64,000 nucleotides of DNA from Prorocentrum cordatum (lineage: Eukaryota > Sar > Dinophyceae > Prorocentrales > Prorocentraceae): assembly GCA_963575745.1 (NCBI GenBank), contig CAUYUJ010014325.1, positions 172,501-236,500 of the forward strand, in the 5' to 3' direction. Every line of letters begins with the position of its first letter. The first letter of the stretch is position 1. The position numbers were made by a program, and so were the translations under genes. Below are positions 21 through 51,362 of the stretch, piece after piece. The notes below the pieces were generated by a model. That model ran no database searches. It was not told where the DNA came from and worked only from the letters and a program-made list of their open reading frames with translations.

Positions 21-845
21 TTAAGTTGTCGTTGATGTGTTGGGTTTCGTTCGGGGGGGTCCTCGCTTCGAAAATCGCACCGACACGTCGTTACATAATC
101 GGAACACGTGCTTGCAGTGCTTCCACTTAGGGTCAGAAATTGCAGCTTTGTGCTCGCTGTTCTCCCCCGTCGCATTGCGGGGGCGATTGGCTGCAGCAGC
201 CCTCTCAGCAATCTCGGTCACTGCCATTGCTGTCACGGCGCCAGGGATAGGAGGGCGAGTCAACTCCACGTTTGCCTTTTTGATCACAGAGGGTTCATCT
301 CGAGGTAGCGCACCGTCAGGGGGACATCCACCGCGATATCCTTATTCACGTTGGTGCAGGTGAACTTGAAAGTGTCCTGAAAAGTCTGAACGACCATCGT
401 AGCCGCAGTGGCGGCCTTCGCGGACGTCGTAGACACCATCCATGCTGGCTGGAACGCTTCGCACGAGAACGTGCTGTAGTTGTGGCCGTCGATGTAGAGC
501 TGTTCGTTGGCGTACTGGCACACGGGCAGGCCCCCTCTGCTCGGCAAGCGCGCCACCTTTCCAAGGAATGCCACCTGGGCCGCCTGCGTCGCACGCGATG
601 CAACCAGGCGCGGCGGCGACTCTGACGGGCCAGCCTCGATGAATGAGGTGCCCCATTCAGCTGGCGCCCCCTTCCTGGGAGGACTGCGTGCGCAGGTCCT
701 CCACAATGCGTCTCCAACGCTTTGGTGAACAACTCAATCGCGAGAGGAGCGGCTCCGACGTCGACGCTGGTCTTGAACGCGTTGCGAATTTCAGCCAACG
801 TCGAGGGCTTGGCCTGCTCAGCGGCGTCGATGCTTGCGTCGCCAC
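21..845 (-). CDS. Unknown protein, downstream segment continuing past the window edge
   Basis: After the intron the frame reads GGDASIDAAEQAKPSTLAEI then NAFKTSVDVGAAPLAIELF. It becomes ambiguous near 700-715, where two frames look equally coding. The next clear stretch, about 650-284, includes EQLYIDGHNYSTFSCEAF and ends at a TGA at 286-284. A one-base shift there reopens VIKKANVELTRPPIPGA, which runs to about 21. The family is unknown and there are no membrane segments. The repeated single-base frame changes match those in the upstream segments. The 3' end of the gene is probably beyond base 1. Confidence 0.45.
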
Positions 846-1039
846 CTTTGACGAACGATCAACGCGCACCCATGCCCATAGGGGAGACGGAATGAGCTGC
901 GGGCGCGCGTTGTCGGATAAGGGTCCCCGCTCGAGCGGGGGCCTCCTCAGGGGCCCGACAACCCGCGCCCATGCCCAGAGCCAGCCCTTCTCACTCCGAC
1001 CTCCCCATGGGCATGGGTGTGCGTTGTTCGTTCGTCAAC
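846..1039 (-). other. 194-nt intron built as a terminal-inverted-repeat element (introner-like)
   Basis: On the minus strand the exon ends AAGGAAG and the intron starts GTTGACG; it ends CGTCAAAG before GTGGCGAC. Removing 1039-846 joins ...MTKE to GGDASIDAAEQAKPS in frame, replacing the TGA that otherwise ends the upstream ORF at 1035. The intron ends are inverted repeats: about 42 of the outermost 49 bases match (TTGACGAACGA...CACCCATGCCCAT). The arms converge on a perfect palindrome CCCCGCTCGAGCGGGG near 936. AGG is duplicated at both borders (1041-1039 and 847-845), as expected of a target-site duplication that also supplies the AG|G splice context. Confidence 0.75.
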
Positions 1040-3016
1040 CTTCCTTGGTCATGACACTGCAGTCCTCATTGGTTGGCTCAGCGGCCTTGTCGTCGCCATC
1101 CTTCTTGGTCTCGGCACTGGTAACTGTGGCCTCCTGTGCTGGTGTCGTCTCCGAGGCGTCGGCGGGCGCCTCGGCCTCGGCGCTGGTGGCTGCCTCGACG
1201 GATGGCGCCTCGGCGCAGTTGCCCTCGCCGGCTGCGCTGGCTGCCCCGTCGGCGAGAGTTGCCGCGAGGATGTCGTTCCGCACGTTAGCAACTTGGAAGT
1301 CCGTAGTGCTCGACTCACGCAACAGTTCCGGCCAGAACGGCGCCCAAGTGTTGCGGCCCAACATGCAGTCCGACTCCGCGATGGCGTTGGCGTTCGCCAC
1401 CAGGACATCAGTGCTTGCATCCTTCATGAACACGAAGTCGGCCATGGCGCCCAGCATCTCGAACATGTAGGTAGCTCGCATGGCCAAGAAGCGCGTGAGA
1501 TTGATATCAGTGTTGAAGATCCCCAAGGACACGTCGGAAGGAGTCGCACTGGTCTGCCTAACCACTTCGCGGCATAGAAAACCAAAGTCCACGAACTCAG
1601 GGCGAACATGATTGAATATCAAGTCCTTCATCATGCTCAGGGCTTGGCCCATGCTCATGTCGCCGTTCCACCCGAAGATCGTCTTCACCATGTTCTGGAG
1701 TTGCGGGTGGAATCTGCGTGGCTTGGTGAGGTCGGTGTCGTTGATCAGCGTGACCAATTGCATCGTGGCGTCACGATCGGCTTAAAGTTCCGCAGGTGTC
1801 TCTTGCTCCTTGGTTGCGTACGTGGCGGACGCAGATGGCACTGGATGTTCAGCCTGCTCCGCAGTCGCCAGCTGGTCGCAGACAACTGTGGCGATCTTCT
1901 CAGGTGTGACGCCCCATAAGGATGCATCGAGATGGCTTTGATAAAGATGCGAATGATCGCGAGCAGCGTTAGCCCTGAGCTCCTTGCGTAGCACGCTCCA
2001 CTTCTCGATGCATGCGCCGTTCCACTGCGCGGCCCCCCCCCCCCCCCCCCCCCCCCCGCAAACAGGAACGCGAGGCCAATCTTGATCGAGCGCGAGAGCT
2101 CGTCAACGAGGATGAGATTCGACGGGGGCTTCTCCACTGGCCCCCAAATGACCCCGATCATATCGTCGATGAAGTACTTGTCGCGTGATCCATCGCAAAT
2201 GCGCCTCGTCCCCAGGGGCTCGCGCGACTCGCTGCCTGAGGCGCTGCAGGAGGTTCCACTAATCTTCTTGGGTCTCCCCCTGGCCTTGGCCTTGGCATTC
2301 GGCTTCCCGTGGCCGTCCGCGTCTAGCAGAGGCTGAGGGCTCACGGCGTCACCATCGCGAACCTCGGCGTCCTCAGGTACAGCCCCAAGCCGGCATGCAC
2401 TGCGCTTTGTTCCCCTGGATGCCTGGCCTCTCCTTTTGCAAGTGGGGTCGTAGACGACAGGCCCACCCATAGCCGCCATCACCCAGTCCAACTTGATGCG
2501 GGACTTAGCGCCCCAGCAGATCCAGGGCACCTCAAGCTTGGGGTTCGAGCTCGTCTCCGAGTCCATTTCTTCGGAGTCCAGCAAGATCGGCGCGGCGAAC
2601 TTCAGGACCTCTATGACGAGCTTCTCGAAGATGACGGGATCCATCCCGTTCGAGAACTTCTCCACGAGCAGCGACACAATGTCGTGATTGAACCTGCACA
2701 TCGCCTGGTTCTCGATGCGGGGGCCCAAGAAGTTCGACTCCTGCTCCATCATAGATTTGCACTCGTCGCACACACCGAGAGCGTTGGCTATTGCGTTGTA
2801 GAAGGGTTTGCAGTTCTCGAAGTGCTGCCATGGCGTCGATCCGAAGAAGTCATTGTGATTGGCCAGCACGAACTCCTCGCGCTGCTTCTCGCATCGGTGC
2901 GGGCACGTGGACTTTGTGATGGAGTGCTTCTTGCGGCGTGCGTCCCAGTGCTCCTGGATGATTGGGCGCTCGTCGTACAGCTCGATCACTGCGGCCTCCG
3001 ACCCCGCGTGGTGCAT
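1040..3016 (-). CDS. Unknown protein, central segment with AT-hook-like motif; frame broken at poly-C
   Basis: Reads leftward from 3016. It contains a Cys pair (CDEC), a long helical stretch, then a basic region ending ARGRPKK, which matches an AT-hook core and hints at DNA binding (inference). The frame is lost in a run of 25 C at 2033-2057. Beyond it the sensible frame reads GVTPEKIATVVCDQLATAEQ and meets a lone TAA at 1784-1782. It reopens in the same frame with MQLVTLINDTDLTKP and ends in an Ala/Glu-rich tail just before the intron at 1039. The family is not recognised. The several breaks mean a decayed copy or noisy assembly; the intact intron junction downstream argues that it was once a spliced host gene. 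Confidence 0.5.
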
Positions 3017-3047
3017 GTTCGATTGGGCGCGAACCTACTTCAGGACA

Positions 3048-3542
3048 TCAACGGAGTATCGCGATGGAACTCGCATGCGTCGTTGATGCCGTTCTTGTAT
3101 ACCCGCGCGACGTGTTGATTTTTTTTTGGGGGGGGGCCAACTTGCGCGCCGTGTGGGTGGCGCAAACCAGCGTGCCACCGCCGATCATCAGGTCGGCGTC
3201 TCCGTTCGTGTCCCTCACGTGCCACATCTCCCCCCTGAGTGCTGTCATCAGGCCTCGCTTCGTGAACAGCTTGCAGCATCGCGCCGCCGCTGCCTGTTGC
3301 GCGCGCTGGTTGAGCATGCGCCTGCGCACGCGCTTCTCGCCCGTAGCAGAATTCCACAAGTAGAGCTTTGCAGCGGGCGGCCTCGGCAACGCGCACGTCG
3401 CCGCGACGAAGCCCACGCGGGCGGCCCCCTCGAGGCCCTCGAGACGAATGTCGATGGATTCGTTCGGGCCCCAGGTGCCGACCTTCGGCCGCCGCGCTGA
3501 GTCTGGCGAGGCTTCCTGGGGAGATCCGTCGGCGAACGACAT
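3048..3542 (-). CDS. Unknown protein, upstream coding segment of interrupted minus-strand gene
   Basis: Open frame of about 160 codons reading leftward from an ATG at 3542. I do not recognise the family. The protein-like part runs to a T9-G9 homopolymer at 3119-3136, where the frame changes. The frame that continues sensibly past it reads NQHVARVYKNGINDACEF. It then stops, and coding resumes in a third frame at about 3016. Codon use is GC-rich like the downstream segments and the strand is the same, so I infer one gene read through 3542 to 21. The frame change at a homopolymer could be an assembly error or a real lesion. No signal peptide or membrane segment is visible. Confidence 0.45.
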   Translation of the reverse strand: MSFADGSPQEASPDSARRPKVGTWGPNESIDIRLEGLEGAARVGFVAATCALPRPPAAKLYLWNSATGEKRVRRRMLNQRAQQAAAARCCKLFTKRGLMTALRGEMWHVRDTNGDADLMIGGGTLVCATHTARKLAPPQKKINTSRGYTRTASTTHASSIAILR

Positions 3543-4906
<1,364 letters not shown>

Positions 4907-7900
4907 TGGTGTCGGGCTCGGAGCTGGAGGCACGTCTTTCAGTGTACCGCAGACGCCATTGTTCATATCCACGGACAGCCAACTGTATCCGACGGGGACG
5001 GCCACGACTTACTTGTTCCATCCTCTTCTTTCTGATCTTTTGTGGCCGGTTTACGGTTGGCTTCGGGGCTTCCATACAAGATCGAGCTGATGATGTTATT
5101 AGCAGGTATATAAGGTCCAGCCCCGACTTCCCACAGTTGCGACGACCTGCTCTTGCATCCTCAGCCTATGCTGTCGTAAACGGGCTTTGTAGTTGGACAG
5201 ATGACTTACCATTTGATTTTGATTTTATCTCAGGTCCGAATGCACGGTCTCTTCAGCGGCTACTGAAGGCAGCATTGTGGCAGATTCTCGTTCCTGTTCC
5301 GTCAGAGACGTTCATCCTGGCACTTGCGCAATTTCAACAACACCTGACTAAGCTGCTCGAAGTACCTAGTGCGAATTTACCTCCAGATGTACAACACATT
5401 GCAGTGACGGTTTCCATAGCTTTATCAATTTGCAGATTGCGAGCTATGTGGACTGGAGGTCGTAGGCTTCAACAGCGTGCAGTTCGTTTCTCTCGAGGCC
5501 TCCCGACTCATCTTTGGGATGCCTTGCAACGACCAGGAGCTGCTAATATTTTATACACTCTGGAGTTGGTTCGTTTCATGCAGGTCCAAGGGCAATGTAT
5601 CTCGGGCAAATGGGATATCAAAAACAGAGGTCTAAGCTTTGTTTACCTTTTGGGCTCCAGGGCCCTCTATATCGGGCAGGGCGTCTGCATACGCACTGGT
5701 ACTTGTAGCGGAGTCTCTGGGAGATATCGGGAACATCTACGTGGTCTCTATAGGGTCTCCGTGGGCCTCCCTACTCCAGATACTGCTCGATATCGAAAGT
5801 TACTACTTGGTAGTGCAGATAGGCTGTTTTTTCTTGTGCTGACCACGGCTCCGAGTTCTCGCATCAAGGCTGTGGAGTCCGCGCGCATTCAGTTCTGCCA
5901 GCCCGAGGCCAATGGTTTCGGATCTAGCAAGCTTGTTGGCCGTGCACATGCGCATCTTCAGGCTCATAGGCGTCGTCGAAATCGTCGTGCACGTCGGCAC
6001 CCAGGGGATCGAGAGGACAGCCTCAGAGAGGCACAACTGTGGAGGGACGATCGGATGGATAGGCTCGTGACTCGCTCCATGGGCTTTGAGAGGTATCTTG
6101 CTGCACGTAGATTTTGGCAAGGTATTCTGCGTCGTCCTTTCCCCCTCACCTACGACCACTTCCTCGCGCGGCATGTGCAACGTACGCGCGAGTTCGGGCC
6201 GCTGGATGTGTACAGTGGCTCTCCATTGCTGTTCCTCAGATGGGTGGCCTTAAGGCCGAATGAGATTATATGGCAGCGTTTCCTACGAGGGCAACAAGAA
6301 TATGATCGATTGTATCTTATTTGGCAGCTTACAGCTATTCTACCTCACTACCAAGATAGATTACGAGTTCAGGGATGTTTGGGGGAATTTCTAAAAATGG
6401 TTGGATATCCTAGGCCAAGCCCTACACATATTACAGTATCTAGCCAGAATGAGGTGTTTCGTGTTCGTAGATGGCTCCAGAAGGTCTTCAAGGACATCCA
6501 GGGTACCCGGCCTTTTTGGGCCCAAATCTGCAAACATCAACTTTCCATTTCAGTGGCTTTCCCTCAGACGTTACGGCAAAAGTATAGTTCCATTTCCAGG
6601 AGTCTTCAGGACCTCAGTTTGGAAGGTATTAGTGAGTTACCAGATTGGGTTTTTCAGGAGGCTGCCCTAGGTTCGGATATGATTCGATGTGACTTTAATG
6701 GTCGAGTTCCATACCCTGAGTTGCCAGCAGAGGAAGCGGTACAGGTGACCCGCTCAGCGTGTGCACGGTGGCTTTCTTCTCAGGCAATCGATCTTGAGTT
6801 GCTACAACATCTCCAACTTCCTCCATGTCCTGAACCTCCTCCTCCAACCTTATCAGTACGAGCCTGCCAGCAGATGTGTCAGGAGCTGGCAGAATCGGGC
6901 AACACACTCACGGCCACAGTTGAGGATAAGGATCCCAACACGCTTTGGTTTGTTGCCCCGTGGGCCATGCTACTTCGTTGGCTAGCTGTTCTGGCACGGG
7001 CTCCGTCTCGGTGGTCTCTCTCAGCGTCTCCAGTCAGTCATATCGTGGATTGGTATCGGTTATGTTTCGACGCGTCGGTCCCGAAGTCCCTACTAAAACG
7101 GGGAGAAAGCGCCATATCCCAAAGGAACATCCCGTACGCCTACCCCACGGTCAAACTAAAATGCTGGGATCCCTCACCCACGTGCCCACCCCAAGGTCGT
7201 CATCGCTGTTCGAAGGCTTCGCACTCCTGTGTTCGAAACATTTGCAGCTTCGCGAAGTTCCCTGGGCGTGGTTTGTTTCGGTGTATGGGCAGGGCTATCA
7301 AATATCTGGTCGACGTCGTCACTCCTGGTTGGTCTTTTCGGGATCTGGATTCTGCCCTGGACGAGATCACTTCGGAGTTGACCCTTCTGGAGGCCCCTAC
7401 GTCGTATAGGTGTACTCGGTGCAATGAGATCATGCATGTTCCTGGTGTGTGTGTCGCAGATGCAGGCCAAGCGTACGAGGCCATCCGATTGGAGCGCATC
7501 TGGCGATCTATTGATAACCTTTTCAAGCGTGTAAGGCAACGTATCCCTCACCGCTGCATTTCAGTGCTGAAGTCTCGCCGTTCACATGTCTTCCCAGGTG
7601 GCACCATTGTGACGAAGTTTTGGGATCGGACTGTGTTCACCATGTCAAGTTTGCGTCGAGCTCTTACAGGCTTTATGGGCTTTCGCTTTTTCCTGTGTGC
7701 AGGGTTCTGTCTCACGCAGCTGCAGGGCATCCCGATTGGCGGGCCATTGAGCCCGATCATCTTGCATATAGTGCTCTCGGAATGCGAGTACCTGTCTGAT
7801 GCTGTGTGGAAAAACCGACAACGCAGGATGTTATGCAAGCGGTATGTGGATGATCTCCTTCTCCTGTCCTATACTACATGTCATAAGTGTCTACACCTAC

Positions 7901-9501
7901 ACGTACAAGATGTATATGGAAAAACAGTAGTATTCGACGTGGTTAGTACACAATATATTTTACACGGCACTGTTATCTTTCCCTATTTGGAAATGGAACT
8001 CCATGTGGCTTTTAATCGGGTTTTGGTCTACTGTGTTCACAAGAATGAAGCTTACGCGCTTACAGGGGATGTATCACGTAGGGCCAAACACAGCATACCA
8101 CCATATATGGGTTCTCTGAATCGACGACAAGTTTTACAACATCGTAGTGAACTAAAAGGACGTCTACGGCGTTGGGAACGTTTGGGCCTAACCCAGGAGA
8201 ACCTTATCCTTTTGTATTGCGTGGATGTCCTGGTCTACCTTCGTCTTGGGTATCCGTGCTCTCTGATCAAGAAGATATGGTCCATGGTTCTCCCCCCAGG
8301 GCCCCGCTATAGTCTCCTGTGGCTTTGTGTCCAACTTACGTTCCAAACTTGTTCTCATCTTCTGGCGCCTCCCTTGTCCGCTGCAGCCGCTTTCACGGCC
8401 ACAAGCGAGATTGTGCGAGCCCGTCGTGCCGACACCGCTCCATCCTCACCTACGCCAGCACCTCCAGCCATGGGCGGTCAGAACTGGCCCAAGGGTGGAA
8501 AAGGTGGCAGGTCTTGGGGATACGGCAATTTCAGTGGCGGCGGCAAGGGACAGTTCGGAGGTATGGCTTCTCAATGGCAGAGTATGATGGCGGAAATGCA
8601 AGCCATGGGTCAGATGAGCCAGCTGTCGCAGTTGTTGGTCCAGCAGAATGCAGCCGCCCCGACTCCTGCGGGCACGGCATCTGCCGCACCAGCGAGCCAG
8701 GCTCCGACGACCGAGGCAGCTACCGACCTTGTGCAGGCAGTCACTCAGCTTTTGGAGAATCGGTCTAACAAGAGCCCGACCGACACGCGCCTCACCAACA
8801 CCATCAAGCGTCTCCATGAGTTGATGGGCAATTCTACCAGCGACGAGCCTTTCGACCTCGAGAATCACCCGGCCTTCAAGAAGCTGCGTGCCGAGTTTTC
8901 AGGTTTATCTGACACGGTCAGCGCTCAGGGTAAGCAGCTTGGAGGGCTTCAGAGGACGGCAGAAGAGACCCAGAGCACCATCAAAGACATGTTCGCGGAG
9001 TTCAGGGCCTTCATCAGCACGCCTAACCCCTGGCATACAGGAAAAGGTGGCCGCCCATCTGAGGTTCCGCCAACAGTCCTTCCAGGACCACGGGAACCCA
9101 CGATCGAGCTCCCTCTGTTCAACAAGGAGATCTCCAAGAGCCTCCACGAGTCCGGCCTCGCGACCTTCGGGATCGGCCTTGAGAGGGCCTCGGCGGTGGA
9201 GCTCGCTCAGGCGGTGGCGGATGCGTCCGATAAGCTGCCCTTTGCGGAGTGGTGGAGCGCTCTCCAGAAGAATAAGTCGCTCCCGCAGTGGAAGACGAAG
9301 TTAGTGTCCCTTGGCGCCAACGAGACCGACATCAAAAACCTTGGGATGAAGCAGATTGGCGAATTCATGTTCAGTCGCATTACGGAGGAAGGCTCGGTGG
9401 CCGACCAGAGTCTCCAGACCATCACGATTCCGTGAGATCGCAAGTTGCCGCCGAGTGCTGCCGACTACCATCCATGGTTTTCGTGGCAGTGCCTTGGACG
9501 T

Positions 9502-11077: not shown

Positions 11078-11090
11078 TGGTAGCGTGAGC
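11078..11090 (+). other. Candidate primer-binding site
   Basis: TGGTAGCGTGAGC six bases after the LTR. The TGG start and its resemblance to the initiator-Met PBS of plant copia elements suggest pairing with a tRNA 3' end ...GCTACCA. Confidence 0.45.
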
Positions 11091-11142
11091 TGAATCGGTC
11101 CACGGTGCGAGGATTTCATGCAGAGTGGCCGTGCAGACATAT

Positions 11143-12024
11143 ATGCTGGCGCTCGCTTACTTCCTCGCGGTGCTTAACCGCTGCGCTCAACAACAGATCG
11201 CGGTGATCGACAACACGCTCAAACTCATTACCTACAACAGCTTGGGCGAGGATCGTTGCATCAACAGCACCCCGGGCGAGCAGCAGAAGCACGGCAGCAA
11301 CGATCTAGACAGCTACTACATGGGAGATAATCTCAGCGGCATCACAGTGATCAAGATGACGCCCAGGCAGCAGCGGCAGTTCAACGACGGCCCCCTCTTC
11401 ATTGACAAGGAGGGCGTGGCACGCTGCAACGGCGACCCATCCTGCGGGGGGGAGTTCGAGGAGCGCGCAATACTCGGCTACCACGCGAGCGAGGAGGAAA
11501 TCAAGCAGCTCTACGCGATCAAGCTCAAGAATTCTCTGAATGGACGAGCGTGGGCACTCACGCGAAAGAAGGCTGAGATCAGTACGCAGGCCGTGTTGGA
11601 CGAAGCAGGTAATGACCCACTTGCTGCAGTCAAATTGGTGGTAACTACAGTGCGACAAGCGTGTGAAAGGATCGCGCCACTACAGAAGCAGCAAGCGTTC
11701 GAGGAGTATTTCTTCCGAGGCTTTCGCAATCGAACAGAGTCTGTGCAGGACTACATATCGAGGCGAGAGACAGAGTACGAGCGGCTCAAGTCACTTTCAA
11801 CGAACACGACAGTCAGCGAGGACCTACGGACATACTTTTTATTGAAACTAGCGAACATCAGCATGCAAGAGCACAAGGCAATCCTTGGCCAATGCAACAA
11901 CGAATGCATCTGGGACGGCGTTGCGGCAGCCGTGCTGATACAGCTGGACAGCACAGGCCGTGATGATCGTGGACATGGGCGATGCGGAGCCTACCCGGTG
12001 GACTACGACGACGAAGAGGAATAA
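11143..12024 (+). CDS. Copia Gag-like protein
   Basis: The open frame contains a helical gag core from about 11480, with segments such as LNGRAWALTRKKAEI, RTESVQDYISRRETEYERL and EDLRTYFLLKLANIS, which have the look of the copia gag fold. The first ATG is 11143; a later ATG at 11320 (MGDNLSGITVIKMTPRQQRQ) may be the true start because the first 60 codons are hydrophobic and atypical. It ends at TAA 12022-12024, after which the same frame stays open into the nucleocapsid zinc knuckle and protease. The stop may be a mutation or a gag/pol control point. Confidence 0.65.
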   Translation: MLALAYFLAVLNRCAQQQIAVIDNTLKLITYNSLGEDRCINSTPGEQQKHGSNDLDSYYMGDNLSGITVIKMTPRQQRQFNDGPLFIDKEGVARCNGDPSCGGEFEERAILGYHASEEEIKQLYAIKLKNSLNGRAWALTRKKAEISTQAVLDEAGNDPLAAVKLVVTTVRQACERIAPLQKQQAFEEYFFRGFRNRTESVQDYISRRETEYERLKSLSTNTTVSEDLRTYFLLKLANISMQEHKAILGQCNNECIWDGVAAAVLIQLDSTGRDDRGHGRCGAYPVDYDDEEE

Positions 12025-14135
12025 GCTCTACTCGGAGACGAATGTGCACCGTGCGATGAAGACGTTTTCCCGAGTGATGAGGGCTACGACGCACTTGCAG
12101 CGGACATCGATGAGATCGAGGGAGTGATTGACGACGTGGGCCCGGGAGAGATCAGCCAGGCGGAGTGCGACAGCCTGGCGACGGAGGCTCAACGTCTTGG
12201 CTGGAAAGCTGGACGGCGCAACCACAAGCCCAACTACAAGCAGGCCCGGGAGCGGGTTGCTCAGAGCAAGTCGAATAGAGGCTGGAAAGCCAACATCAAC
12301 AAGCATGGCTTTATCAAGGTGGACAGCAAAGAGGCTGATGAGAAGCTGAAGCCGATCAAGGCGCGCACGAAGTGCAACGCGTGCCGCAAGACGGGTCGCT
12401 GGAAGGGTGACCCCGAGTGCGAAAAGACGAGGTCACCCGCGAGTGGATCCAGCGCGCTACAACGTGGAGGGCGAGGGGGCGGACGTGGAGGACGAGGCTT
12501 TCACGGACGACCTGGAGGTTTTCTACGACGAGCTGGATTCGCAATGGCGACCGCGGTCAAGCTGCTGATGGCGGACAGCTCGGTGGACATGGCCGCCATG
12601 CAGATTGTCAGCGACCAGCTGGCAATCATAGACGTGGCGATGGAGGAGACCGCGAGTCTGACGAAGGTGAGAATCGACACCGAGGAGCAGATCGTGAACA
12701 CCTACGCGGTTTCAGCAGCAGGAGACCAACCGAACTTCCAAGAGAGGATCGACCAGGCACACGAACCATGCCCAGTACCTGGAGAGCATCAAACGCAAGA
12801 ATCTGACGAACCCCTGAGCACTCCAGCGGGCTCAACGAGCAGACCGACACCAGGGGCGTGGTCGAGGGCGGAGCCCAGCAGACCAAGTACAGACTACCTG
12901 GAAGAAGACAACACAGAGGAGGACCTACAAAAGATACGATATCGTGCAGAGCAGATCGCAGCGCTGTGGGTAAGCTGCGAGAACATGGAAGCGGCCTATA
13001 GGGACTATATTGATTTCTGTTTGGGCTGGGCCCTACATCGCTTCCAGCAGCTCATGCACATCACCATGGAGATGGCACCGAACGGTCTCAGGAATATGGC
13101 CTACGATCTATGCCAAGCAGCCTGGGACAGGACCTCGGAGCTTCGTGACGTCGTAGGGAGTACTTGCGAGCGCCTACCGATTGGAGTACGACCGACATGG
13201 TTGTGGACGCAACGCCGAGCTGGAACCAACTACGCTCCAGAGGGAGCTGGGCGGCAGCAACCTTGCGAGGAGCTGGGAGAAATTGAAGCCTACGCAGTAC
13301 GAGAAGGACCTATTCCAGATGGACATGCTGTACTGGACACTGCGTGCCTACGTGGATGTGGAGGTTCAATATCACTGGACGGCTACACAGAGGACGGCAG
13401 AGTCACCGCGCGGATGAGAGGATCCTCCATGCGCTTCCGAGGCGTGAATGATAGCGCACCGGTCATGGCAGAAGGAGAACAAGAGGTGACGGCTGGACTT
13501 GCTGGAGCTGACGTGAACCTACGCTTCCAGAGGTTGCCGAAGTCAAAGACGCCAATACCGCTGAGCATCCACCAGCTGGAGGAGCTCGACACAGTGATAT
13601 ACATCAAGGATCGGAAGGCGGACTTCAAGGACGGAGTGCCTCTCGACAAGACGGAGAAGGGACACCTGACGATCTCGCTCAAGGAGTGGCCGAAGAAGGA
13701 GACGACACAGATCGAGCCATCAGTCACGCCCGACGAGATCGACATCTGGAATGCGGAGGTCCAGGAGATCGATAAGGGCATCCTACGGCGGAAGCAGAGG
13801 AAGCAGATCGAGACGTGGGAGAAGGAGATTCAGGACAAGCTGGACCAGTGCCAGCAGATCGTGGACACGCTGAAGGCGGACCCGGAGGAGAAGCGGCCCA
13901 TCATCTGCGAGCTCTACGCAGGAGGCATGGCAGCCACATCAGAAGCTCAGCAGCGGCGGCATCCAGTGACGAGGCCGAGGGGCATCCTGATCGGGGACGA
14001 CCTGCTGGACGCGAAGTCGCAGAAGACCGTCCTGAAGCAGCTGAACGAGGATGACCCCTACATGACCATTGTGGGTTTCCCCTGCGACCCGTTCACGAAC
14101 ATATCCCACATGTTCCCGAAGAACACATATGCGCA
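12025..14135 (+). CDS. Copia pol N-terminal part: degenerate zinc knuckle, protease, MTase-like domain start
   Basis: In frame with gag after its TAA. CNACRKTGRWKGDPEC (12373-12420) is a zinc-knuckle-like motif in which the expected His before Trp is Arg (CGC), a probable loss-of-function change. At 13321-13362 HAVLDTACLRGCGG fits a retropepsin active site (D-T-A). A charged linker with many Glu/Lys follows (SLKEWPKKE, RRKQRKQIETWEKEIQDKL). From 13895 a methyltransferase-like domain begins. The frame is lost near 14130, where coding passes to the next frame and continues into integrase. Confidence 0.7.
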
Positions 14136-14460
14136 AGTTGGCGATCGGCATGAAGCACCTGCAGCTTGTCAAGAAGATCTGGCTCAACTGCAGGCGCCGA
14201 GGAGCTCATGTGCTACTGGAAAGCCCATTGACGTCAAGAGCCTGGCAGCTTATGCCATGGCTGGGCTCAGAGTTCGTGAGCGCGATGATGCACCAGTGCG
14301 CCGGGGGCAGCAACCTGGTGGACTTCATGGGCGATCCAGTCAAGAAGCCGACGAGGTTCCTGACGACGGCCATCATGCTCGGCAAGAAGCTCCTCAGCAT
14401 CAGGTGTGATGAGCAGCATGTACACGCGAGCGTGATCAATAGGCCGAAGGGAACAGCATC
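13895..14460 (+). other. Cytosine-methyltransferase-like domain inside copia pol
   Basis: Ordered motifs: ICELYAGGMAAT (resembles the SAM-binding FxGxG/DLFAGxGG motif I), GILIGDDLLDA, MTIVGFPCDPFTNI (motif IV-like Pro-Cys with the candidate catalytic Cys), HVLLESPLTSRAW (ExP, motif VI-like), MMHQCAGG, KKPTRFLTTA and a CDEQHVHAS segment. A frameshift at about 14130 splits it. Modules of this kind between protease and integrase occur in dinoflagellate copia elements, as far as I know. Whether it methylates DNA cannot be told from sequence alone. Confidence 0.6.
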
Positions 14461-15949
14461 GAGCCTTGGGAACTGGACCAAGGAGCTGGCCAAGACGATC
14501 TTGGACGGCATCGAGGATCAGCGAGACCTCGAGAAGCAGCATGGTGGCTACGCCCGGTACGCCAACAACTTCGACGACATCGACTGTGACGAGTTCGTGG
14601 CCAACCCTGCGGAGACGGAGGCGCCGATGCACGCAAGCGCGGCGGCGATCTTCAGCAAGCATGGCGAGAACATCGAGATGGCGGAATGGACGGCGGTGCC
14701 ACCACTCATGCGAGCAGCTATCAAGAAGATACACGAGAGCCATTCACATGGGCCCTACAAGGAGTCACTGGTACGGTATCTACAGCATGGTGGAGCTAGC
14801 CGACGAGCGGTACAAGCAGCACGTCTCTTCAGATGCACGACATGTGAAGAGCAGGCTCGGACGGGAGCGAGACCTACGGCAGCTCAGCCTAAGGTTGAGG
14901 ACTTTAACGATGCCATCAGCATGGACTTCGTGATCATACCCGACCTGGACAATAACATGCACGTGGTGCTTGTTCTCGTGGACGTGGCCTCGGACATCAC
15001 CGCGGCGATCTACGCGTGTCCCGGATCGAGACCTACGGCAGAGATAGCAAAGAAGGCTTTCGAACTCGGATGGCTTACCTGGGCCGGGCCACCGCGCATT
15101 GTGGAGCAGGACCAGGACTCTACCTTCATGGGCGAGTTCGAGACGCTGTGCAACGACCTGGGCATTGTGATTAACAACGCGGCTCCAGAGGCTCACTGGC
15201 AAATGGGCAAAGTCGAGAGGAAGATGCGATACCTGAAGGAGATGGCGACGAGTGTCTTCAACGCTGGGGAAGTTCGTGGTCAAGATTCGGCTGCAGCAGC
15301 AGTACGTGGTATGGCCAACGCGTGCAATCAACTTGTCAGCACGGCAGGCTTCTCACCACAGCAATGGGTACTTGGAGCTGGACACCGACTGCCTGCAAGT
15401 GCGGCGAATCCCGACAACGACCCAGCAGTGGTTTCACGAGTGGCCGAGAAGACGTCATTCTGGAACCGACTACACCTACAACAGATCTGTTCGGGATCTT
15501 TTTTCAAGGCAGCAAACTCATCAGCGCTGAGACGGGCAGTTCTGGCGAGGGCGAGGCCCCAGCCAGGGCCATTTCAGCAAGGTGACTTACTGATGTTTTG
15601 GCGATCTGATAACCTAAAGCGCAACCTGCATGCACGATGGCATGGACCTGCCCGGTGCCTAGGCAAGGATGAGCACGGTTACTGGCTGATCCATAACAGG
15701 ATCCCGATCCTAAGTTCACCCAGTCTCCTTCGAAGGGCGACTGGGCACGAGGTGACCAGCATGCAGTTTACCGACCTGTTTTCAGATGGCGGACCTGCAC
15801 GTGGACGAGCTGGTCAGCGGGGTTTTCTGGATCTTCGAGGTCAACAGTATAACCCAGCACGAGATGATCGACAACCAGACCAGCAGCCAGATCAACGGCC
15901 AGATCAGCAGCCAGATCAACATCAAGATCACCGAGATCCAGGACATTAG
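14136..15949 (+). CDS. Copia integrase
   Basis: Begins inside the MTase-like domain after the frame change. It then has an HHCC zinc-binding segment (HESHSHGPYKESLVRYLQHG ... FRCTTCEEQ) and an rve catalytic core with ISMDFVIIPD (first Asp, about 14924), EQDQDSTFMGEF (second Asp, about 15110) and AHWQMGKVERKM (Glu, about 15213). The C-terminal GDLLMFWRS...WHGPARCLG...YWLIHNRIP region resembles the copia GKGY-type chromatin-contact fold. It ends in a Gln/Asp-rich repeat (DQQPDQ) and a lone TAG at 15947-15949, beyond which the same frame remains open into RT. Confidence 0.85.
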
Positions 15950-18900
15950 CAGAGTCCTGGACATGGCGATGTTCCACCTCAGCCAGCAGGTGGACACGGG
16001 GATGCACCCTCGAGCGCACCGACGACGGCACCAGCAGCACCTGCTCAGGGCAACGTGGAGCTGACGAAGCCAGCGGACAGCAGGAAGCGACGATCGGAAG
16101 TGGTGCACGATAACGACGCGATGCCAATGCGTCAGAGGCTTGACGACGAATACGAAACAGTACCAGTTGATCAAGATCAAGCGGAAGAAGACCTACGAGC
16201 ACGACCTGTTCGAGCGCACCAAGCTTGGGACACCATCTTGGGAGCGGTGGCGGCCAGCAGCCAGGGCAAGACCGACCTGAGGCAGCTGGACAATGTCAGG
16301 AACGCTCCTCTTCTACCTGACCCGACACCTGGGTTCAAGATTGAGAGGCGGCGGCTTTTCAACTTGGACACGCGCGACCTGGTTCAAGATATCTCGAGAG
16401 TGGACTGGGCAGCCAATCCTCAGATCATCGACGATGTGGTATCACAGGGCCCCATCACGATCATCGAGGAGATCGCTCTGGGAAAGGAAGAGGAAGCTGG
16501 AGATGGACCAGGAGGTGGCCAACAGCCTGCAGCGGCCCCGCAGGAGCCTACCAATACTGACGAGACCATGGAGGAACCTAAGGAGGTGAAGCGCGGAGGC
16601 AAGAAGCACACCAAGAAGGACCTGAGGCTCAAGCAGACCAAGCGGGTCGACGCTCAGGACGATCGAGCTCAGCTTCGAGTACCTGCCAGGATGCAGAGAC
16701 ACATGGAGGAACGCCAGAAGGCGGAGGAAACGGCAGCAGTACCAGCAGAGGCACCGCAAGACCAGCCGGCCACATCATCGCCAATCACGCGACAGCCTGC
16801 GCAGGGCAAGCGCCAGGAGCATCCAGTCACGCTCAAGGAGTTCTTGCTGGACGGTGTGCCGATCAGCATCAAACGAGCCCGGGCGCAAACTGGGCCAGTC
16901 AAGCAGCTGGCAGATACGCCGCTGCTCGTCGAGGCGTTCGCGGCCGAGCGGACGTGCAGCCAACCGACGAGAGCCAACAAGCATCAGGAGATCAACTTGA
17001 AGACGCTGGGCGATGACAAGCTCAAGTGGAAGAAGATGCAGCAGGCGGTGGAGAAGGAATGGAACACGTGGTGCAAGTGCGACTCAGCAACCCACATATC
17101 AGGAGCAGCAGTCGACAAGGTCGACCCGGACAAGATCCTGAGCTCCAAGGTGGTCTGGACCGATGAGGACCCCGCGACCTTCGAGCCGAAGGCCAGGATC
17201 TGTGGGAGAGGCTACGAGGAGGAGTTTGACGACAAGCTACGACGGGACTCACCTACAGTCTCAGCACAGACGACGTTACTCTTGTGCAGCATCGCATCAA
17301 GCCTCAATTTGGACCTAGTCATCGCAGATGTGAAGGGGGCCTTTCTGCAAGGCGAAGCCATCGCACGCGAGCTCTACTTCCGTATCCCGACGAACCTCGG
17401 GAAGTGCAACGTCCCGGGAGTGAAGGCAGGCGACCTGCTGAAGTTGAATAAGAGCATCTACGGGGCCAACGATGCAGCTCGTGCGTGGTATGTGGCACTA
17501 CGCGAGACGCTCGTGAAGCTTGGATGGGAAGGCCTGGGCTTCGAGCCCGCGACCTTCATCAAGCGCAATGCGGAGGGCACGATCATCGGGATCATGTGCC
17601 TGCACGTGGACGACTTCATGGGCATCAAACAGGACGACCCGGAGGGCGGCAAGATCCTGAAGGACCTGCAGAAGGATATCGACTTTGGCGAGGTCAAGTA
17701 CGCAAGGAAAGAGCAGGCGACGTTCTGTGGCCGGGCCTACCAGCAGGACAAGGACGGCAGCATCAACGTCACCATGGAGGCTTACGTGAAGTCGATGCAG
17801 ACTGTACGTATCTCCAGAGAGCGCAGCAAGGCACCAGATAGCGCCTTGACTCATGCAGAGCATCGTGGACTACGAATGGTAGTTTGGCAACTGCAATGGG
17901 CTGCGCGAGTGATATGCTTCGAGGAAGCCTTCGAGGCATCCCGACTGGCATCTACGCTGGGAGCTCCGACGGTGAAGGACCTACAGGACGGCAACGCGGC
18001 CATCAGGAGGGTCCAGAAGCGGACCGACTTGCTGATTAGGTTCTCAGCAGGCCTGAATCTGTGGCAGACCATGGTGATCAATGTCACCGACAGTGCTTTC
18101 GACAATCTGCCCAAGCACAGATCACAACGCGGACACTTCATCATGCTGGGCGACCAGAAGATCAACGAGGACCATAGTAACAAGTACAAGGTACACTGCA
18201 TTGGGTGGCAGTCTTCCAAGATTCAACGAGTGGTGCGATCTACTCTATCTGCGGAGGCCTACTCATGTGCGGATTCAGTGGGCATGCTGATATGGACGAG
18301 GTCGACCCTGGCGGAGATCCTGTACCCGGAGATGGACATGACCGAGATTGTGCGCGACACCTGCCCGGTGACATGCATTCCGGTGACCGACTGCAAGAGC
18401 CTATACGACACGGTCACAAAGGAGAAGATCTCTATGACGGACAGGAGGCTTTCTTTGGAAGCGGCCATATTGCGGCAGTCACCCAAAGAGAACAGCATCA
18501 AGTGGGTCAAAAGTGAGCAGATGCTAGCGGACTGTTTTACAAAAGTACTTCCAGGAGGCTACGCGAGGAAGATAATTACACCAAATTTATGGACTCTTGG
18601 GCCTGGTGACAGGGCACCATCAATACGCGGACGGAAGCTTGTTGGACCAGAGAAGGTGGCAGCCAACAAGGAGGTGGACGAGCTCAACGCGAAGATGGCC
18701 AAGTACGTCAAGCAGGAGCTGTACGATGACACCGGGAAGGACGACGAGGAGATCTCTACGTGGCCAGTGGAGACGTACAACTACGTGGACGAGTGCTTCT
18801 ACGACGACAAGGACGAGGTTCAAGACGAGGACTACGTCGAGGCATTCTACACGGAAGAGCTACCGGACAACTACCCAATGGAGAGGAGTGGCGCGGAGAG

Positions 18901-19498
18901 AACCATCCAGATACCTGACCAAGTTGTGGTTCTGTTTCAACTTTGTGCACTTGCAGTGTATGGAGTTTGTCTTTCGATGTCTCCTACGGTGGTGGCAGTA
19001 GTCTCTATCATCGCGGGTATCATCATATTCATTTACGTAACGCAGCCTAAGCAGAACGATGGCGAGGACATGTTTGATCCGATGGAGGTGGATAGTTCAA
19101 GCAGCGACAACCTGTTCAAGCCGGAGTTGCCCGAGAAGCCGGTCAAGGTCAAATCCAGGACAGCGAAGGCTACACCAAAAACTACGACGACAACGCTCGC
19201 AGTACGAGCCGACCCAGAGACCTACGATGATGAGATCATGGGAGATGGACCAATCATGCTGGGAGATAGTGCTCTACTGAGGCAGTGGCTGGAGACCATG
19301 GGACCGACGATAATCAGGAGTGGCAAGTACGAGGGCGACAGCTACGAGACGATTTATACGAAGGACAGGCACTATGCAAATTGCCTAGGACGGTGTCTCA
19401 AGCTGGGCGCAGACGAGAGCAGGAGTTACAACCTCGACCCGAGCATCAAGGTTTACATTGCATACAGCATCATCAAGTCAGCAGTGCGTGTACGCTGA
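15950..19498 (+). CDS. Copia reverse transcriptase / RNase H with transmembrane C-terminal extension
   Basis: In frame with integrase after the TAG. A charged linker precedes the RT: SSKVVWTDE, DLVIADVKGAFLQGEAI (motif A, about 17326), LLKLNKSIYGANDAARAWY (motif B) and MCLHVDDFMGI (YxDD equivalent HVDD, 17603-17614). RNase H follows with VTDSAF, TLSAEAYS, VTDCKSLYD and LADCFTK, i.e. all four acidic positions. Copia polyproteins normally end soon after; here about 300 more residues follow, acidic at first (YVDECFYDDKDEVQDEDYV). Two hydrophobic helices come next at 18922-19040 (VVVLFQLCALAVYGVCL, VVAVVSIIAGIIIFIYV), then a soluble tail. The extension could be an env-like or membrane-targeting domain (inference). 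This half is intact. Confidence 0.85.
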   Translation, partial: QSPGHGDVPPQPAGGHGDAPSSAPTTAPAAPAQGNVELTKPADSRKRRSEVVHDNDAMPMRQRLDDEYETVPVDQDQAEEDLRARPVRAHQAWDTILGAVAASSQGKTDLRQLDNVRNAPLLPDPTPGFKIERRRLFNLDTRDLVQDISRVDWAANPQIIDDVVSQGPITIIEEIALGKEEEAGDGPGGGQQPAAAPQEPTNTDETMEEPKEVKRGGKKHTKKDLRLKQTKRVDAQDDRAQLRVPARMQRHMEERQKAEETAAVPAEAPQDQPATSSPITRQPAQGKRQEHPVTLKEFLLDGVPISIKRARAQTGPVKQLADTPLLVEAFAAERTCSQPTRANKHQEINLKTLGDDKLKWKKMQQAVEKEWNTWCKCDSATHISGAAVDKVDPDKILSSKVVWTDEDPATFEPKARICGRGYEEEFDDKLRRDSPTVSAQTTLLLCSIASSLNLDLVIADVKGAFLQGEAIARELYFRIPTNLGKCNVPGVKAGDLLKLNKSIYGANDAARAWYVALRETLVKLGWEGLGFEPATFIKRNAEGTIIGIMCLHVDDFMGIKQDDPEGGKILKDLQKDIDFGEVKYARKEQATFCGRAYQQDKDGSINVTMEAYVKSMQTVRISRERSKAPDSALTHAEHRGLRMVVWQLQWAARVICFEEAFEASRLASTLGAPTVKDLQDGNAAIRRVQKRTDLLIRFSAGLNLWQTMVINVTDSAFDNLPKHRSQRGHFIMLGDQKINEDHSNKYKVHCIGWQSSKIQRVVRSTLSAEAYSCADSVGMLIWTRSTLAEILYPEMDMTEIVRDTCPVTCIPVTDCKSLYDTVTKEKISMTDRRLSLEAAILRQSPKENSIKWVKSEQMLADCFTKVLPGGYARKIITPNLWTLGPGDRAPSIRGRKLVGPEKVAANKEVDELNAKMAKYVKQELYDDTGKDDEEISTWPVETYNYVDECFYDDKDEVQDEDYVEAFYTEELPDNYPMERSGAERTIQIPDQVVVLFQLCALAVYGVCLSMSPTVVAVVSIIAGIIIFIYVTQPKQNDGEDMFDPMEVDSSSSDNLFKPELPEKPVKVKSRTAKATPKTTTTTLAVRADPETYDDEIMGDGPIMLGDSALLRQWLETMGPTIIRSGKYEGDSYETIYTKDRHYANCLGRCLKLGADESRSYNLDPSIKVYIAYSIIKSAVRVR

Positions 19499-35600: not shown

Positions 35601-35965
35601 AAGGGTAAGTACGTACGGGCAAGATGCTGATATAATAACCATTTTGTCCTCAGAAGGGGCTCTGATTTTCGGGCCGTTCTTGGGGAGGCTCGCACTGGCC
35701 AGAAAAAGCCACTTGTATTCGGCGCTCCTCATGGTAGCACGAAAATCATACAACATCCGAGTCTGTTTTGATGATGTGGGACCCTTGGGCCGGCCCGCAT
35801 GACGTCCAAGGCGGCCCAAGATGCCCCCCTATCAGCCCCAGGACGGCCCTTTGGAGCTATCTTAGAGCATGCTGGAGGCTGAGCCCCGCGGCCGTGCTCC
35901 GAGTGCATCAGGAAAAGTCACGCGGGCATTCCCGAGAGTGCCCGGGAACGCCCAGAACAGGGGGT

Positions 35966-36224
35966 CTGGGCCTTAGCGGGCCCTGGAAACGACAGGGCCG
36001 TTTTTTTACCGGTTCCGTTTTGCCGTTTTTTTGCCGGTTCCGACGCCGTTTTTTTACCGGTTCCGTCGCCGTTTTTTGACCGGTTCCGGCTCCGGTTCCA
36101 ATCTTGGAGCCGTTTTTTTGCCGTTTCCGGTCGCCGTTTTTTTGCCGTTTCCATTTTCAAGTAGCATTTTTCTGGAAACGGTGAAAACGGCCCTGCCGTT
36201 TCCGGGGCCCACAAAGGTCTGGGC
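35966..36224. repeat. Foldback element with internal tandem repeats
   Basis: About 40-nt inverted arms (35966-36006 and 36183-36224; core GGGCCC-GGAAACG-CAGGGCCGTTTT) enclose about eight copies of a 17-22 bp unit GCCGTTTTTTTGCCGGTTCC. MITE-like; no coding capacity. Confidence 0.65.
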
Positions 36225-36461
36225 CCCGGAAAAGTTTGAGGCGACCCGAGGGCAACCCATTCAGTGTATACTGAACGGTGGCGGATCTTGCTGTGACCAT
36301 TTTCCGTTTCCCCAGCCATCCCGTGGTGCTGGGTCCACGTGTTGAATCCGCACCGCCCAGCGTCGCGCACCTTCCCCGCACGCAGACCCCTCGCACGTTC
36401 CGCGGCCTCCCAGGAACCTCCAACTAAGACCAAGATGCCAGGGCCCGCTTTGCGTCGCTTA

Positions 36462-42725: not shown

Positions 42726-43689
42726 ACTCAGGAGGATCCGCTCGAACACGGGCTTTCCCTCCCACGCCTCTGGGGTCGGCGGATTCAACAGCTCTTCATC
42801 AATACGTGCACGTTCCCGTGTGGTGAAGGGTCATTTGGACCAACGAGCAATTGCGATTACATGCAGCCAAGGCTTGGCATGTATCATTTCATGTTTAGCT
42901 TCTGCTGCTGCTGTTCCTCCTCCGTCTCCTCGCGCGGCGCAATCGGGAACACGGTCGGACGCAGGCGCAAGAGTCCGCTCGACATCCGCGTGCTCTACAC
43001 GCCAGCCCCGCGGCACCTGCCGCTTCGCCGCGGCCTTAGTGTTGTCCTTGCTCCCCGTTCTCCCCCTTCGCTCCACCCCGGTACCATGTTTACCGTTTCC
43101 CGTTCCTTGCGCTGGCCCCACAGGTCGATGTTGCCACCTCTGTCTCCCATCTCGCGCATTTCGGGGTGCCGTCGGCCCAGTTGGGCGGCGCTGTCAATGC
43201 GGCCTGGCCGCTCGTCCCGCTCACAGTCCACGCGCTAGCGATTTGGCTTGGGGCAGTAAGTCGGATCACGCTACTATGGGATGGTGTAGGGTCATGGAGA
43301 GGGCAGGGGAGAGAGGTGGAAAGGGCGAGGGGGAATGGAATGGAGTTGGAGATGGGGGATGGAAAGGGGGTGGGGGATATTAGATGGCGAGGGGAGTGTG
43401 GGAGGGATGGCTTCCACTCCAAGTGGGGGGGGGGCGCACCATCCCCTTCCCGCCCGTCTTCTGTCCCCTCAGCAGAGGCAGAACAAGGACAGGCGCAATT
43501 GGGCGCAGCAGCTACATGTATCCGATGTGTGGGTTGCCCGGGTGGTTTATCCCCTCTGTGAGCGCAGATCTAAGGTCTTTGCACGGGGTCAGGGCCTTGG
43601 AAGTGCGGGTCCATATTCTCGTGCAAGGGGCCATCGCTTCAGGACGGTGGACCATTTCTCGGCGGCAAGCGAGGGGGGAAAATGAGAAG
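42726..43689. other. No supportable gene
   Basis: Unique-looking sequence followed by a GGAATGGAG/GGGGAT purine-rich patch (43290-43390). Confidence 0.4.
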
Positions 43690-43800
43690 GAAAAGGCCTT
43701 CTCAGAAGGCGGCGGTTCTTCTCAGAAGCCCTAGCGCGTTCTGACACACTTCTCAGAAGGCCAGGGGACTTCCGAGCCTTCTGAGAAGGCCCGCCCGTTC
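43690..43800. repeat. Cluster of CTTCT(C/G)AGAAG palindromes
   Basis: CCTTCTCAGAAGG, CTTCTCAGAAGC, CTTCTCAGAAGG and CCTTCTGAGAAGG within 110 bases. Confidence 0.8.
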
Positions 43801-43839
43801 TCACTTCCCCCCGGGCTCGCCGCCGAAGTTTCGCTCAAA

Positions 43840-44215: not shown

Positions 44216-45557
44216 CCCCACAAATTCGGATGGCGTGACTCGGAGGTGAGAGCGCCGCCCTTTCGGGCTTACAGTGGTGGGGCGTGCTCTTGAAACAGTG
44301 GAGCATCATTTCCAGGTAGAAAGAGATCGACAGTTCGGCACTCTGAGAACAGCTGAATAGAAATGACGGCTGCTGAGTTGTTGAGTTCCTCAGGGTCGTG
44401 CAACGCTGCATGTTGCCTCATGGCACAGCTGATGAAGCATAGCCATTGCAGCCACATGGTCCAGAAAGGGAAGGGGGCAGCGGATACCATGGTGCTTCCA
44501 CGGGAGCTGCCACTGGCCGAGGCCGAACCCCGCTGGGGCAGCTGGAGGCCCTGCAGCCCAGGCGCTGGGGTCTCGAGCAGGCGCCGGCCGCCCCCAGGGG
44601 CGGGGCCCATGGGAACTTACTCAAGTGGTCTTGTCTGCTCCTCCAAGTGGTCCCTCCTTCGGTCTAGGCCTCCCAGATGGGGTCCGAGTAGGTGGGGTCA
44701 GATGAGCGCGCAGCACCGCCGATGCCATTCGATGTGGAGCCCGATTTTCCCGTCGACGTCGCCAACACATCGGCAACGTCGCCAGTGCATCGCCGATGCA
44801 TTGTCGATGCATCGGAAGTGCTGCGCGATCCTCCGAGCCCATCTATTCCGAGCCCATCTGAGAGGCCTCTATTCCTAGTCGGCCGAACGGGGGCCCGAGT
44901 CAGGTTGCCCACGCACAAGGGCGAGGCGAGAACAGAGCAGCATGAAGGCACGGCGGCGGCAGTTGGAAGGTGCAGGCAGAGCAAGGCCTGTCGTGTCTTC
45001 GCAACCTCGCAGTCTCTTGTCTTCGCCTTGGCCTCGTCCGCCACCGCCCTTGCCATCAGAGGTGCTCGAGTTGATGCGCTACCCATTCATCGTCAGCCCC
45101 TACCACTCCATTACTTCTCCGCCTCTCCCTCTCTTGCCTCCTCCCTCCTTGGCTGTCTCCCACTCTTCTTGCCCACCTACTACTCTTTCGCCCCCCCCCT
45201 CCCTTTGGACTGACGGGGCCGCGTACCAGTTGCCTGGTCGCTGCCAGGTGCTGGGGGAAGACTGGCGCGACGGCGAAAAGGCAGCCTTCGGGGAGCTGTT
45301 GCAGGCCGTGCCTGCTCGTCGTGCGGCCGCAGCGGCCCGCTGCCTCCCAGCAGTTGGTTGCCACTTGCCATCCTTCTCCGGGCGCTTGCACGCCGTCTCA
45401 CCATTACTCTTGTCTGAGTTCGGATCTCTGGTGAGATGTGAGGCATTCTCCAGCGGGGGATGGTCGCATCTAGACAACAGGCCCCCCCTGGCCCCCCTGG
45501 CCTCCCGGCCCATACCCGCCGCCAGTTGTCACCCTGCCCAGGCGAGCTGGCCCAGAT
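44216..45557. other. No supportable gene
   Basis: Several GC-open frames on both strands but no motif, and no frame stands out. Confidence 0.4.
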
Positions 45558-47823: not shown

Positions 47824-47923
47824 GCGTGACGCGTGGGCCTGGGGGGGCCAGCAGGCCCACGCAGGAGACAGCGCTGGTCCCACCTTCCTGGGCAAGGGTG
47901 CTTACCCCGAGAAGATTTTCCCC

Positions 47924-50000: not shown

Positions 50001-50169
50001 CAGCCGCTCCCGCAGCCGCCTGGGTTCGAGCGCCTGGGGGCTTGCGGCGATCACCAGTCGCTGGCAGGAGCGCCCGGCCAGGATGTCCAAGCTGGTCCTG
50101 GGCGCCGGCGGGCCGCCGCTGGGACGTCGCCACCGGCGGCGCGTGCTGACCGCGGAGGCCGCCAGCCGC

Positions 50170-51362
50170 GCGCCGGCCGGCCTGCACCTGGCGGGCCCAA
50201 GGGCCGGCAGCGGACGCTGACGGAGGCCGACGTCCACGCCTCGCTGAACTCGAGGTTGCGCTTCAAGCTGGCGAAGCCGCCCGTGGACCTCGACGAGGTA
50301 GGGGGCGCGAGCGAGGAGGGCCGCGAGACAGACGGGTCCAGCGGGGCTACCTCCGGGGTGCCTGTTCATTGCGGTCCTACGAGGACTCGCCGGCTGGCAA
50401 GATATGCCAACCTCGACCCGAAGCGGGGCGCCACGCACCTGGAGCAGAAGAGCGCGACGCCGAGGGTGATGGACGACAACAAGCGACGCATGCGGCTCGC
50501 GTTGAGCTTCGCGCAGCGGCGCCGCTTCCAGGCCCGGTCTCAGACGGACGTGGACGAGCTGTTGACGCACTTCATGAAACGCAAAGTACCGCGACGGCGA
50601 GCACAGCAGCTACGGCGTCAAGCTTCTCGCCGGCTGGATGGACGTCTACCCGGAGTACGGCAAGTACGGGAAGTTCAAGTTGCCGCGGGCGGGTCGCGCT
50701 CTGAAAGGGTGGCGGCGCCTGGTGCCGGGGCGGAGTCGGAAGCCGTGCCCGTTCCCGCTGGTGGCGGCCCTGGTCGTCGCGCTGATCCACCTGAACGAGC
50801 TGGAGGGCTGTGGGTGATCGTCGCCTGCGGCTTCTACTTCAGGCCGTGCGAGTGCCTGGGGATCCAGGCGGAGGACCTGGTCGCACCCGTCACGGGGGTC
50901 TCGAGCCACTGGGGGCTGCTGGTCGCGCCGGAGGAGCGCGGGGTGGCGACCAAGGTCGGGGCCTTCGACGACAATCTGCTGTGGGATGCCCCGTGCCTGT
51001 CTTTCATGAACGACGTGTTTCAGGTGCTCCGCTCGCGGCCGGAGGGGCAGCCCTTGTGCGCCCTGGACTACCCGCGCGTGCTGAAGGCTTTCAAGCGGGC
51101 GTTCAAGCTGATCGGGGCCGACGCGGTGCCGTACCACATGAGGCACTCCGGTCCGAGTTGGAAGCGGCTCAAGGAGATGGGGGCGCTGCAGCAGATCCAG
51201 AAGAGAGGCCGCTGGGCCTCGGTCAAGAGCCTAGTGCGGCACGAGAAGCATGGCAGGCTGGCGATGCAGATGGCCGAGCACTCCGCCGCCAAGCAACGCT
51301 GGCTGCTGGCCTGCGAGCGACGCGTCGGGGAGTGCGTCCTCGGCTCCAGAGTCGCCGACTGA
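50170..51362 (+). pseudogene. Tyrosine recombinase with Tyr-to-His change at nucleophile position
   Basis: The N-terminal domain runs to about 50590, where coding slips to another frame (YGVKLLAGWMDVYPEYGKYG ... PLVAALVVALIHLNE) and returns near 50805. The catalytic domain has GFYFRPCECLGI (first Arg, 50841), PYHMRHSGPSW (H/R box; Arg 51141, His 51144), RGRWAS and VRHEKHGRL. In relatives I recall this last motif as RYEKHGRL, the Tyr being the nucleophile; here the codon is CAC at 51240-51242, one base from TAC. If correct, the recombinase is inactive. It stops at 51360-51362, with the methyltransferase-like frame beginning just after. Confidence 0.7.

Follow-up and report, generated by a model that had tools for sequence, protein, structure and literature searches.

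A 194-nt sequence interrupts a coding region on the minus strand of a 64-kb stretch of Prorocentrum cordatum DNA (the window, 64,000 nucleotides). Its ends are inverted repeats and its borders carry splice dinucleotides. Is it an intron that was made by the insertion of a DNA transposon, as an earlier note on the locus had claimed, or a transposon that is never removed from the transcript? The element, the border repeat and the splice dinucleotides lying at that repeat all agree with the claim, and from them we infer transposition and splicing. Our overall reading is a MITE-like introner that took its splice sites from the duplicated target and that sits in a probable retrocopy. We give this reading a probability of about 0.72.

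Anatomy of the inverted-repeat element

The positions of the features are collected in Table 1. The two arms are 86% complementary over 49 nt, which bears out the long and about 86% matched inverted repeats described before, and within them the terminal 11 nt are identical. When the 194 nt were folded as RNA, the energy was -138.9 kcal/mol, compared with a mean of -82.3 for its shuffles (sd 4.8, z -11.8). None of the 200 shuffles folded equally well. The fold pairs 158 of the 194 nt, and its outer stem consists of 46 pairs.

Table 1. Features of the insertion and its host gene copy, in window positions. A slash marks an exon/intron border.
Feature	Position	Strand	Remarks
P0121-like host gene copy, likely retrocopy	99..3542	-	single intron-sized insertion, which is the element
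Candidate DinoSL relict	3614..3634	-	15/21 positions; 72-92 nt before the ATG at 3542
Putative introner intron	846..1039	-	GT(1039)-AG(846), 194 nt; P0121 matches the junction without gaps
MITE-like inverted-repeat element	848-1038	.	191 bp (3-bp target reading)
MITE-like inverted-repeat element, 5-bp target reading	849-1037	.	
Inverted arm, 49 nt	848-896	+	first letters TTGACGAACGA
Inverted arm, 49 nt	990-1038	-	first letters TTGACGAACGA on the minus strand
Element termini			form TTGACGAACGA...TCGTTCGTCAA
Inner inverted pair 901-917 / 954-970	901..970	.	flanks palindrome 922-943
Subterminal motif, third copy	959-980	+	direct repeat of 860-881, 86%
Target duplication, 5' copy AAGGT	1038..1042	-	AGG = 1041-1039; holds donor AG/GT
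Target duplication, 3' copy AAGGT	844..848	-	AGG = 847-845; holds acceptor AG/G

The window was scanned for terminal arms with strict settings (a 9-base terminal seed, at least 42 of the 49 arm positions and a length of 98-700 bp). The element was the single place found, and 40 first-order Markov shuffles of the window gave none. Inverted pairs of at least 16 nt number 93 in the window and are hence not rare as such; the element ranks fourth among the 25 listed. A looser scan for inverted ends with a 3-10 bp repeat, run without a shuffle control, returned ten rows, two of which are this element.

Between the arms lies a core of 93 nt. The palindrome that had been placed at its centre is present, and it is only roughly central, about 10 nt away from the midpoint at 943. 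This offset, the second inverted pair and a subterminal motif present for the third time make the core less regular than a simple plan of two arms joined by a palindrome. Overall the element has the characters of a MITE: terminal inverted repeats, a short length (191 bp), no coding sequence and a duplication of 3 or 5 bp. The suggestion that it inserted fairly recently is unsupported, as the mismatches between the arms may belong to the family. For want of sister copies to compare, we rejected the 86% arm identity as a clock.

The window contains no second copy of the element. The terminal 11-mer occurs exactly only at the element's two ends, and blastn of the element within the window gave matches of at most 21 nt outside it. 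A 17-letter terminal pattern (16 specified bases) was found at 11 places in viral_contigs, where the matches were short, terminal and no longer than 31 nt; for this reason we took these places as chance and not as copies. In viral_contigs (viral sequences, not dinoflagellate) there were 0 matches to either a 20-base subterminal pattern or a both-ends pattern, and genome_contigs (prokaryote genomes, not dinoflagellate) likewise had 0 for the latter. The element matched nothing in phage records. A scan of the window yielded 0 Rfam matches at gathering thresholds and 0 ARAGORN genes.

Other repeats and mobile elements were seen in the window. By eye, none of the inverted repeats at 44666-44868, 43674-43812, 35961-36227, 13441-13730 and 62665-62750 has AG/G at both borders, and the first three (139-267 bp) have no clear target duplication. 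On the plus strand, a frame open from stop to stop at 4675-9435 (1586 aa) has a YVDDLLLL motif and a weak match to the reverse transcriptase family RVT_1, below the Pfam cut-off. Upstream of this motif is a stretch that looks GIY-YIG-like by eye. The frame may presumably belong to a Penelope-like retroelement with its endonuclease on the N-terminal side. A Copia-like element occupies 11089-19498 (+) in several frames, with RVT_2 in 15950-19495 and in-frame stops at about 12024 and 15949. Among the best 120 of its 259 relatives, unnamed ENA proteins come first at about 43% identity, followed by e.g. Symbiodinium RE1 at about 30%. At 46321-51661 (+), frames resemble by eye a retroelement with recombinase-like and cytosine-methyltransferase-like parts (LFSGSGG...APPCSSFS). 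No Pfam match was obtained in the four pieces of this region that were scanned, which leave out 46321-47823.

Border repeat and putative splice sites

On the minus strand the borders read ...GACCAAGGAAG/GTTGACGAACGA...TCGTTCGTCAAAG/GTGGCG..., with GT at 1039-1038 and AG at 847-846. The splice dinucleotides are those named in the earlier note, and 194 nt lie between these bounds. The same note had described a duplicated 3-bp AGG. This repeat is present, and a 5-bp AAGGT reads equally well. With AAGGT as target, the inverted repeat begins one base further in, at TGACG, and the target supplies both splice sites entirely; with AGG, the T of the donor is supplied by the element. Both readings give the identical empty site and the identical splice junction, and one copy cannot decide between them.

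At a single locus a duplication of the borders is not separable from an AG/G splice context. The acceptor AG/G is usual in dinoflagellates, at 79.7% in P. cordatum and 56.5-97.1% among the remaining species in the table of PMC10666404, so that the 3-bp repeat alone is weak evidence for a target duplication. The stronger part of the evidence is that the inverted repeats end exactly at the border repeat. No polypyrimidine tract was evident by eye before the acceptor.

Removal of the putative intron restores an open frame locally, for 742 nt before the junction and for about 140 nt after it; the restored frame that had been claimed across the junction does not reach beyond this. Coding GC3 is 0.78 over the 742 nt upstream. 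Downstream, in the spliced frame, it starts at 0.78 for the first 100 nt and drops to 0.71 for 150 and 0.68 for 200, a fall that is due to the frame change near 706, about 140 nt past the junction. A restored frame is not evidence of splicing, because any transposon, once taken out with one copy of its target, leaves the original frame.

The fact that discriminates between an introner and a plain MITE is that the target reads AG/GT. To see how often chance would give such a target, we counted sites. Of 3246 sites in the host open frame, 63 are AGG, 9 are AGGT and 3 are AAGGT, this site included. An insertion would acquire GT-AG borders at 20 of the 739 upstream-exon sites if the target is 3 bp long and at 20 of 737 if it is 5 bp; across the window the share is 3.3-3.9%. 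Since GT makes up only 24.7% of P. cordatum donors, next to 51.4% GC and 23.8% GA (PMC10666404), GC and GA donors must be counted too. With them, the upstream exon has 56 of 739 or 80 of 737 such sites, and the window 7.6-10.1%. Splice-like borders are thus met by chance at about 2-4% of sites for GT, or 8-11% for GT, GC and GA, which favours an introner by a likelihood ratio between about 10 and 50.

The host gene copy and its probable retroposition

We searched for a relative of the host gene with pieces translated from the minus strand. Among the 7998 scored candidates that shared most words with them, one protein reached E <= 0.01. This protein, P0121 ("unnamed protein product [Prorocentrum cordatum]", 1081 aa), is 85% identical to the translated pieces over 99% of the 751 residues scored. 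A previous search with the spliced 313-aa stretch had given 0 of 5619 candidates at E <= 0.01, its length limits having left out the 1081-aa P0121. By tblastn, P0121 is collinear with the window from 3542 to 99, over 3.4 kb, and the element is the sole intron-sized interruption. The protein has no insertion at the element's place. Compared with the spliced product, it is identical at 261 of 293 positions and runs through the junction with 0 gaps. P0121 is itself a predicted protein, and the gene that encodes it might be interrupted by an intron at the junction codon. No Pfam domain was found in it at E <= 0.01, and by sequence it has no relative among solved structures. In viral_contigs one stretch matched a peptide pattern of P0121, and it encoded no relative.

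As assembled, the host copy is damaged. The reading frame shifts at 25 consecutive C (2033-2057) and near positions 3117, 3049, 706 and 290, and in-frame stops lie at 3037-3035 and 1784-1782. The C run falls within coding sequence and is absent from P0121; it is a variable tract or an assembly artefact. As two lesions, that near 3117 and the C run, are at homopolymers, where assembly errors are common, and the remaining ones are not, the damage may come from faulty assembly, from decay into a pseudogene or from both. With several lesions the copy may also be unexpressed.

The differences between the host copy and P0121 have a marked direction. The window has G/C where P0121 implies A/T in 90 cases (G for A in 62, C for T in 28) and the opposite in 17 (15 and 2, respectively), with 23 transversions. 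This tally covers 130 of the 142 differing residues; a transition was chosen where several single changes were possible, and 12 multi-change residues were dropped. The changes show just a slight excess in CpG context (G>A after C, 23/62; C>T before G, 13/28). The GC content of the window is 59.7%.

Genes of P. cordatum have 9.8 introns on average, and 83.7% of the genes have introns (PMC10666404). Judged by its collinearity with P0121, the 3.4-kb host copy is without introns except for the element. Upstream of its ATG is a candidate relict of the dinoflagellate spliced leader, matched against the DinoSL sequence as quoted in PMC6050394, which also says that leader relicts between -50 and -100 are more conserved; the candidate, at -72 to -92, falls in this range. 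The match is 15/21 only, and five places in the window, on both strands, reach 15. The number of such matches expected in 255 sense-strand starts is about 0.01 from the window's 5 sites and about 0.003 from 20 shuffles. We therefore consider it likely that the host copy is a retrocopy of a trans-spliced mRNA. If it is, the intron would have entered after the mRNA stage and would post-date retroposition.

Proposed origin of the putative intron and its relation to known introners

The following course of events would account for the locus. The host copy probably arose first, by retroposition of a spliced-leader mRNA. A short non-autonomous DNA transposon with inverted repeats would then have inserted at an AAGGT site of the coding strand, and transposition would have duplicated the target AGG or AAGGT. 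The left target copy would serve as donor AG/GT and the right one as acceptor AG/G. By removing the element and one target copy, the spliceosome would give back the coding sequence as it was before insertion, without adding or deleting a residue. Being nearly palindromic, the transcript is predicted to fold into a hairpin whose foot would bring the splice sites close to each other, which may help their pairing.

From the likelihood ratio and the enrichment in introner elements reported for P. cordatum introns (PMC10666404), we think it probable that the element is a splice-competent introner. That this particular copy is spliced we rate lower, at somewhat better than even odds, because the copy may be silent.

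The element might instead be an ordinary MITE-like transposon in a dead retrocopy that is never spliced, its AG/GT borders reflecting coincidence or a mild target preference. The frame changes, the two stops and the 25-base C run of the host copy would suit such an origin, any insertion with a target duplication restores the frame, and splice-like borders arise by chance at the rates given above. The exact GT-AG placement has a low chance on this explanation, which also sits poorly with the published enrichment of introners, and part of the damage, near 3117 and at 2033-2057, is at homopolymers, common places of assembly error, the other lesions being elsewhere. We consider a never-spliced MITE fairly unlikely. 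An inverted repeat that is no element at all, formed by coincidence or by a local inverted duplication of GC-rich sequence, or else in assembly as a hairpin chimera, could draw on the abundance of inverted pairs in the window. Its arms, however, stop exactly at the direct repeat and at the protein-level junction, the shuffles gave no such structure, and the arms differ at several positions, unlike those of a single-strand chimera. This makes an artefact or chance origin very improbable.

A further alternative keeps the introner and changes the timing alone: an older introner of the parent gene may have been retained when the mRNA was retroposed. Dinoflagellate retrogenes with retained introns are described in PMC6050394. 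The 3.4 kb hold no other intron-sized insertion, and the keeping of just one intron seems less likely than a later insertion, so that we regard retention as improbable. Our preferred reading thus remains a MITE-like introner that entered a probable retrocopy.

As the earlier note had stated, introners that arise in this way are known from dinoflagellates; P. cordatum is among them. Roy et al. 2023 (Curr Biol), as summarised in PMC11453091, reported transposon-born introner families in five dinoflagellate genomes. The element falls within the definition of introner elements in PMC7789003 and PMC10666404, inverted repeats of 8-20 nt and direct repeats of 3-5 nt near the ends. Like it, the P. cordatum introners of PMC10666404 have, close to either end, inverted repeats (the search there covered 8-20 nt) and direct repeats of 3-5 nt. 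The genome described there has a GC content of 59.7%, the same as the window, whereas its introns are far longer, with an average of 4709 bp compared with 194 nt here. As described in PMC7789003, the introners of Amoebophrya share several features with the element: inverted repeats, direct repeats of 3-5 nt that span the exon/intron borders, a hairpin RNA and the lack of transposase genes. Their inverted repeats are of 8-20 nt and they were defined among non-canonical introns, whereas here the arms have 49 nt and the borders are canonical GT-AG.

The introner families surveyed across eukaryotes in PMC9860276, e.g. in Symbiodinium microadriaticum and Florenciella, resemble the element in having terminal inverted repeats and/or target duplications (3-9 bp there). 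According to the same source, introner families recruit splice sites from the target and leave mRNA length mostly unchanged. The Symbiodinium microadriaticum introner has its own 3' splice site and 4-bp duplications, unlike the element under the 5-bp reading. That of Florenciella carries neither splice site, as does the element under that reading. The kind of introner is therefore already published, and the element is at most a further member.

A more specific picture is also possible, and we offer it tentatively as the less probable one. The element may be an orientation-neutral introner, near-palindromic and without a splice site of its own. Any insertion whose 5-bp duplication has the sequence AAGGT in the sense direction would then turn into an intron, and here one such insertion would have been caught in a retrocopy. 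If this were true, the intron gain would be dated to a time after the earlier introns had been lost in a step at the RNA level. Among titles in the literature on introners and retrogenes or on introners and Prorocentrum, none concerned an introner inside a leader-tagged retrocopy.

How introns originate has long been asked, and introners provide one well documented route by which they arise in large numbers. Taken singly, the present locus is an illustration of a published mechanism. An introner in a retrocopy gives the direction of the change, a gain, without an outgroup, since a retrocopy of a spliced mRNA starts intron-free. Dinoflagellate retrocopies are tagged by the leader relict, and introners within such copies would make a clean set of dated intron gains.
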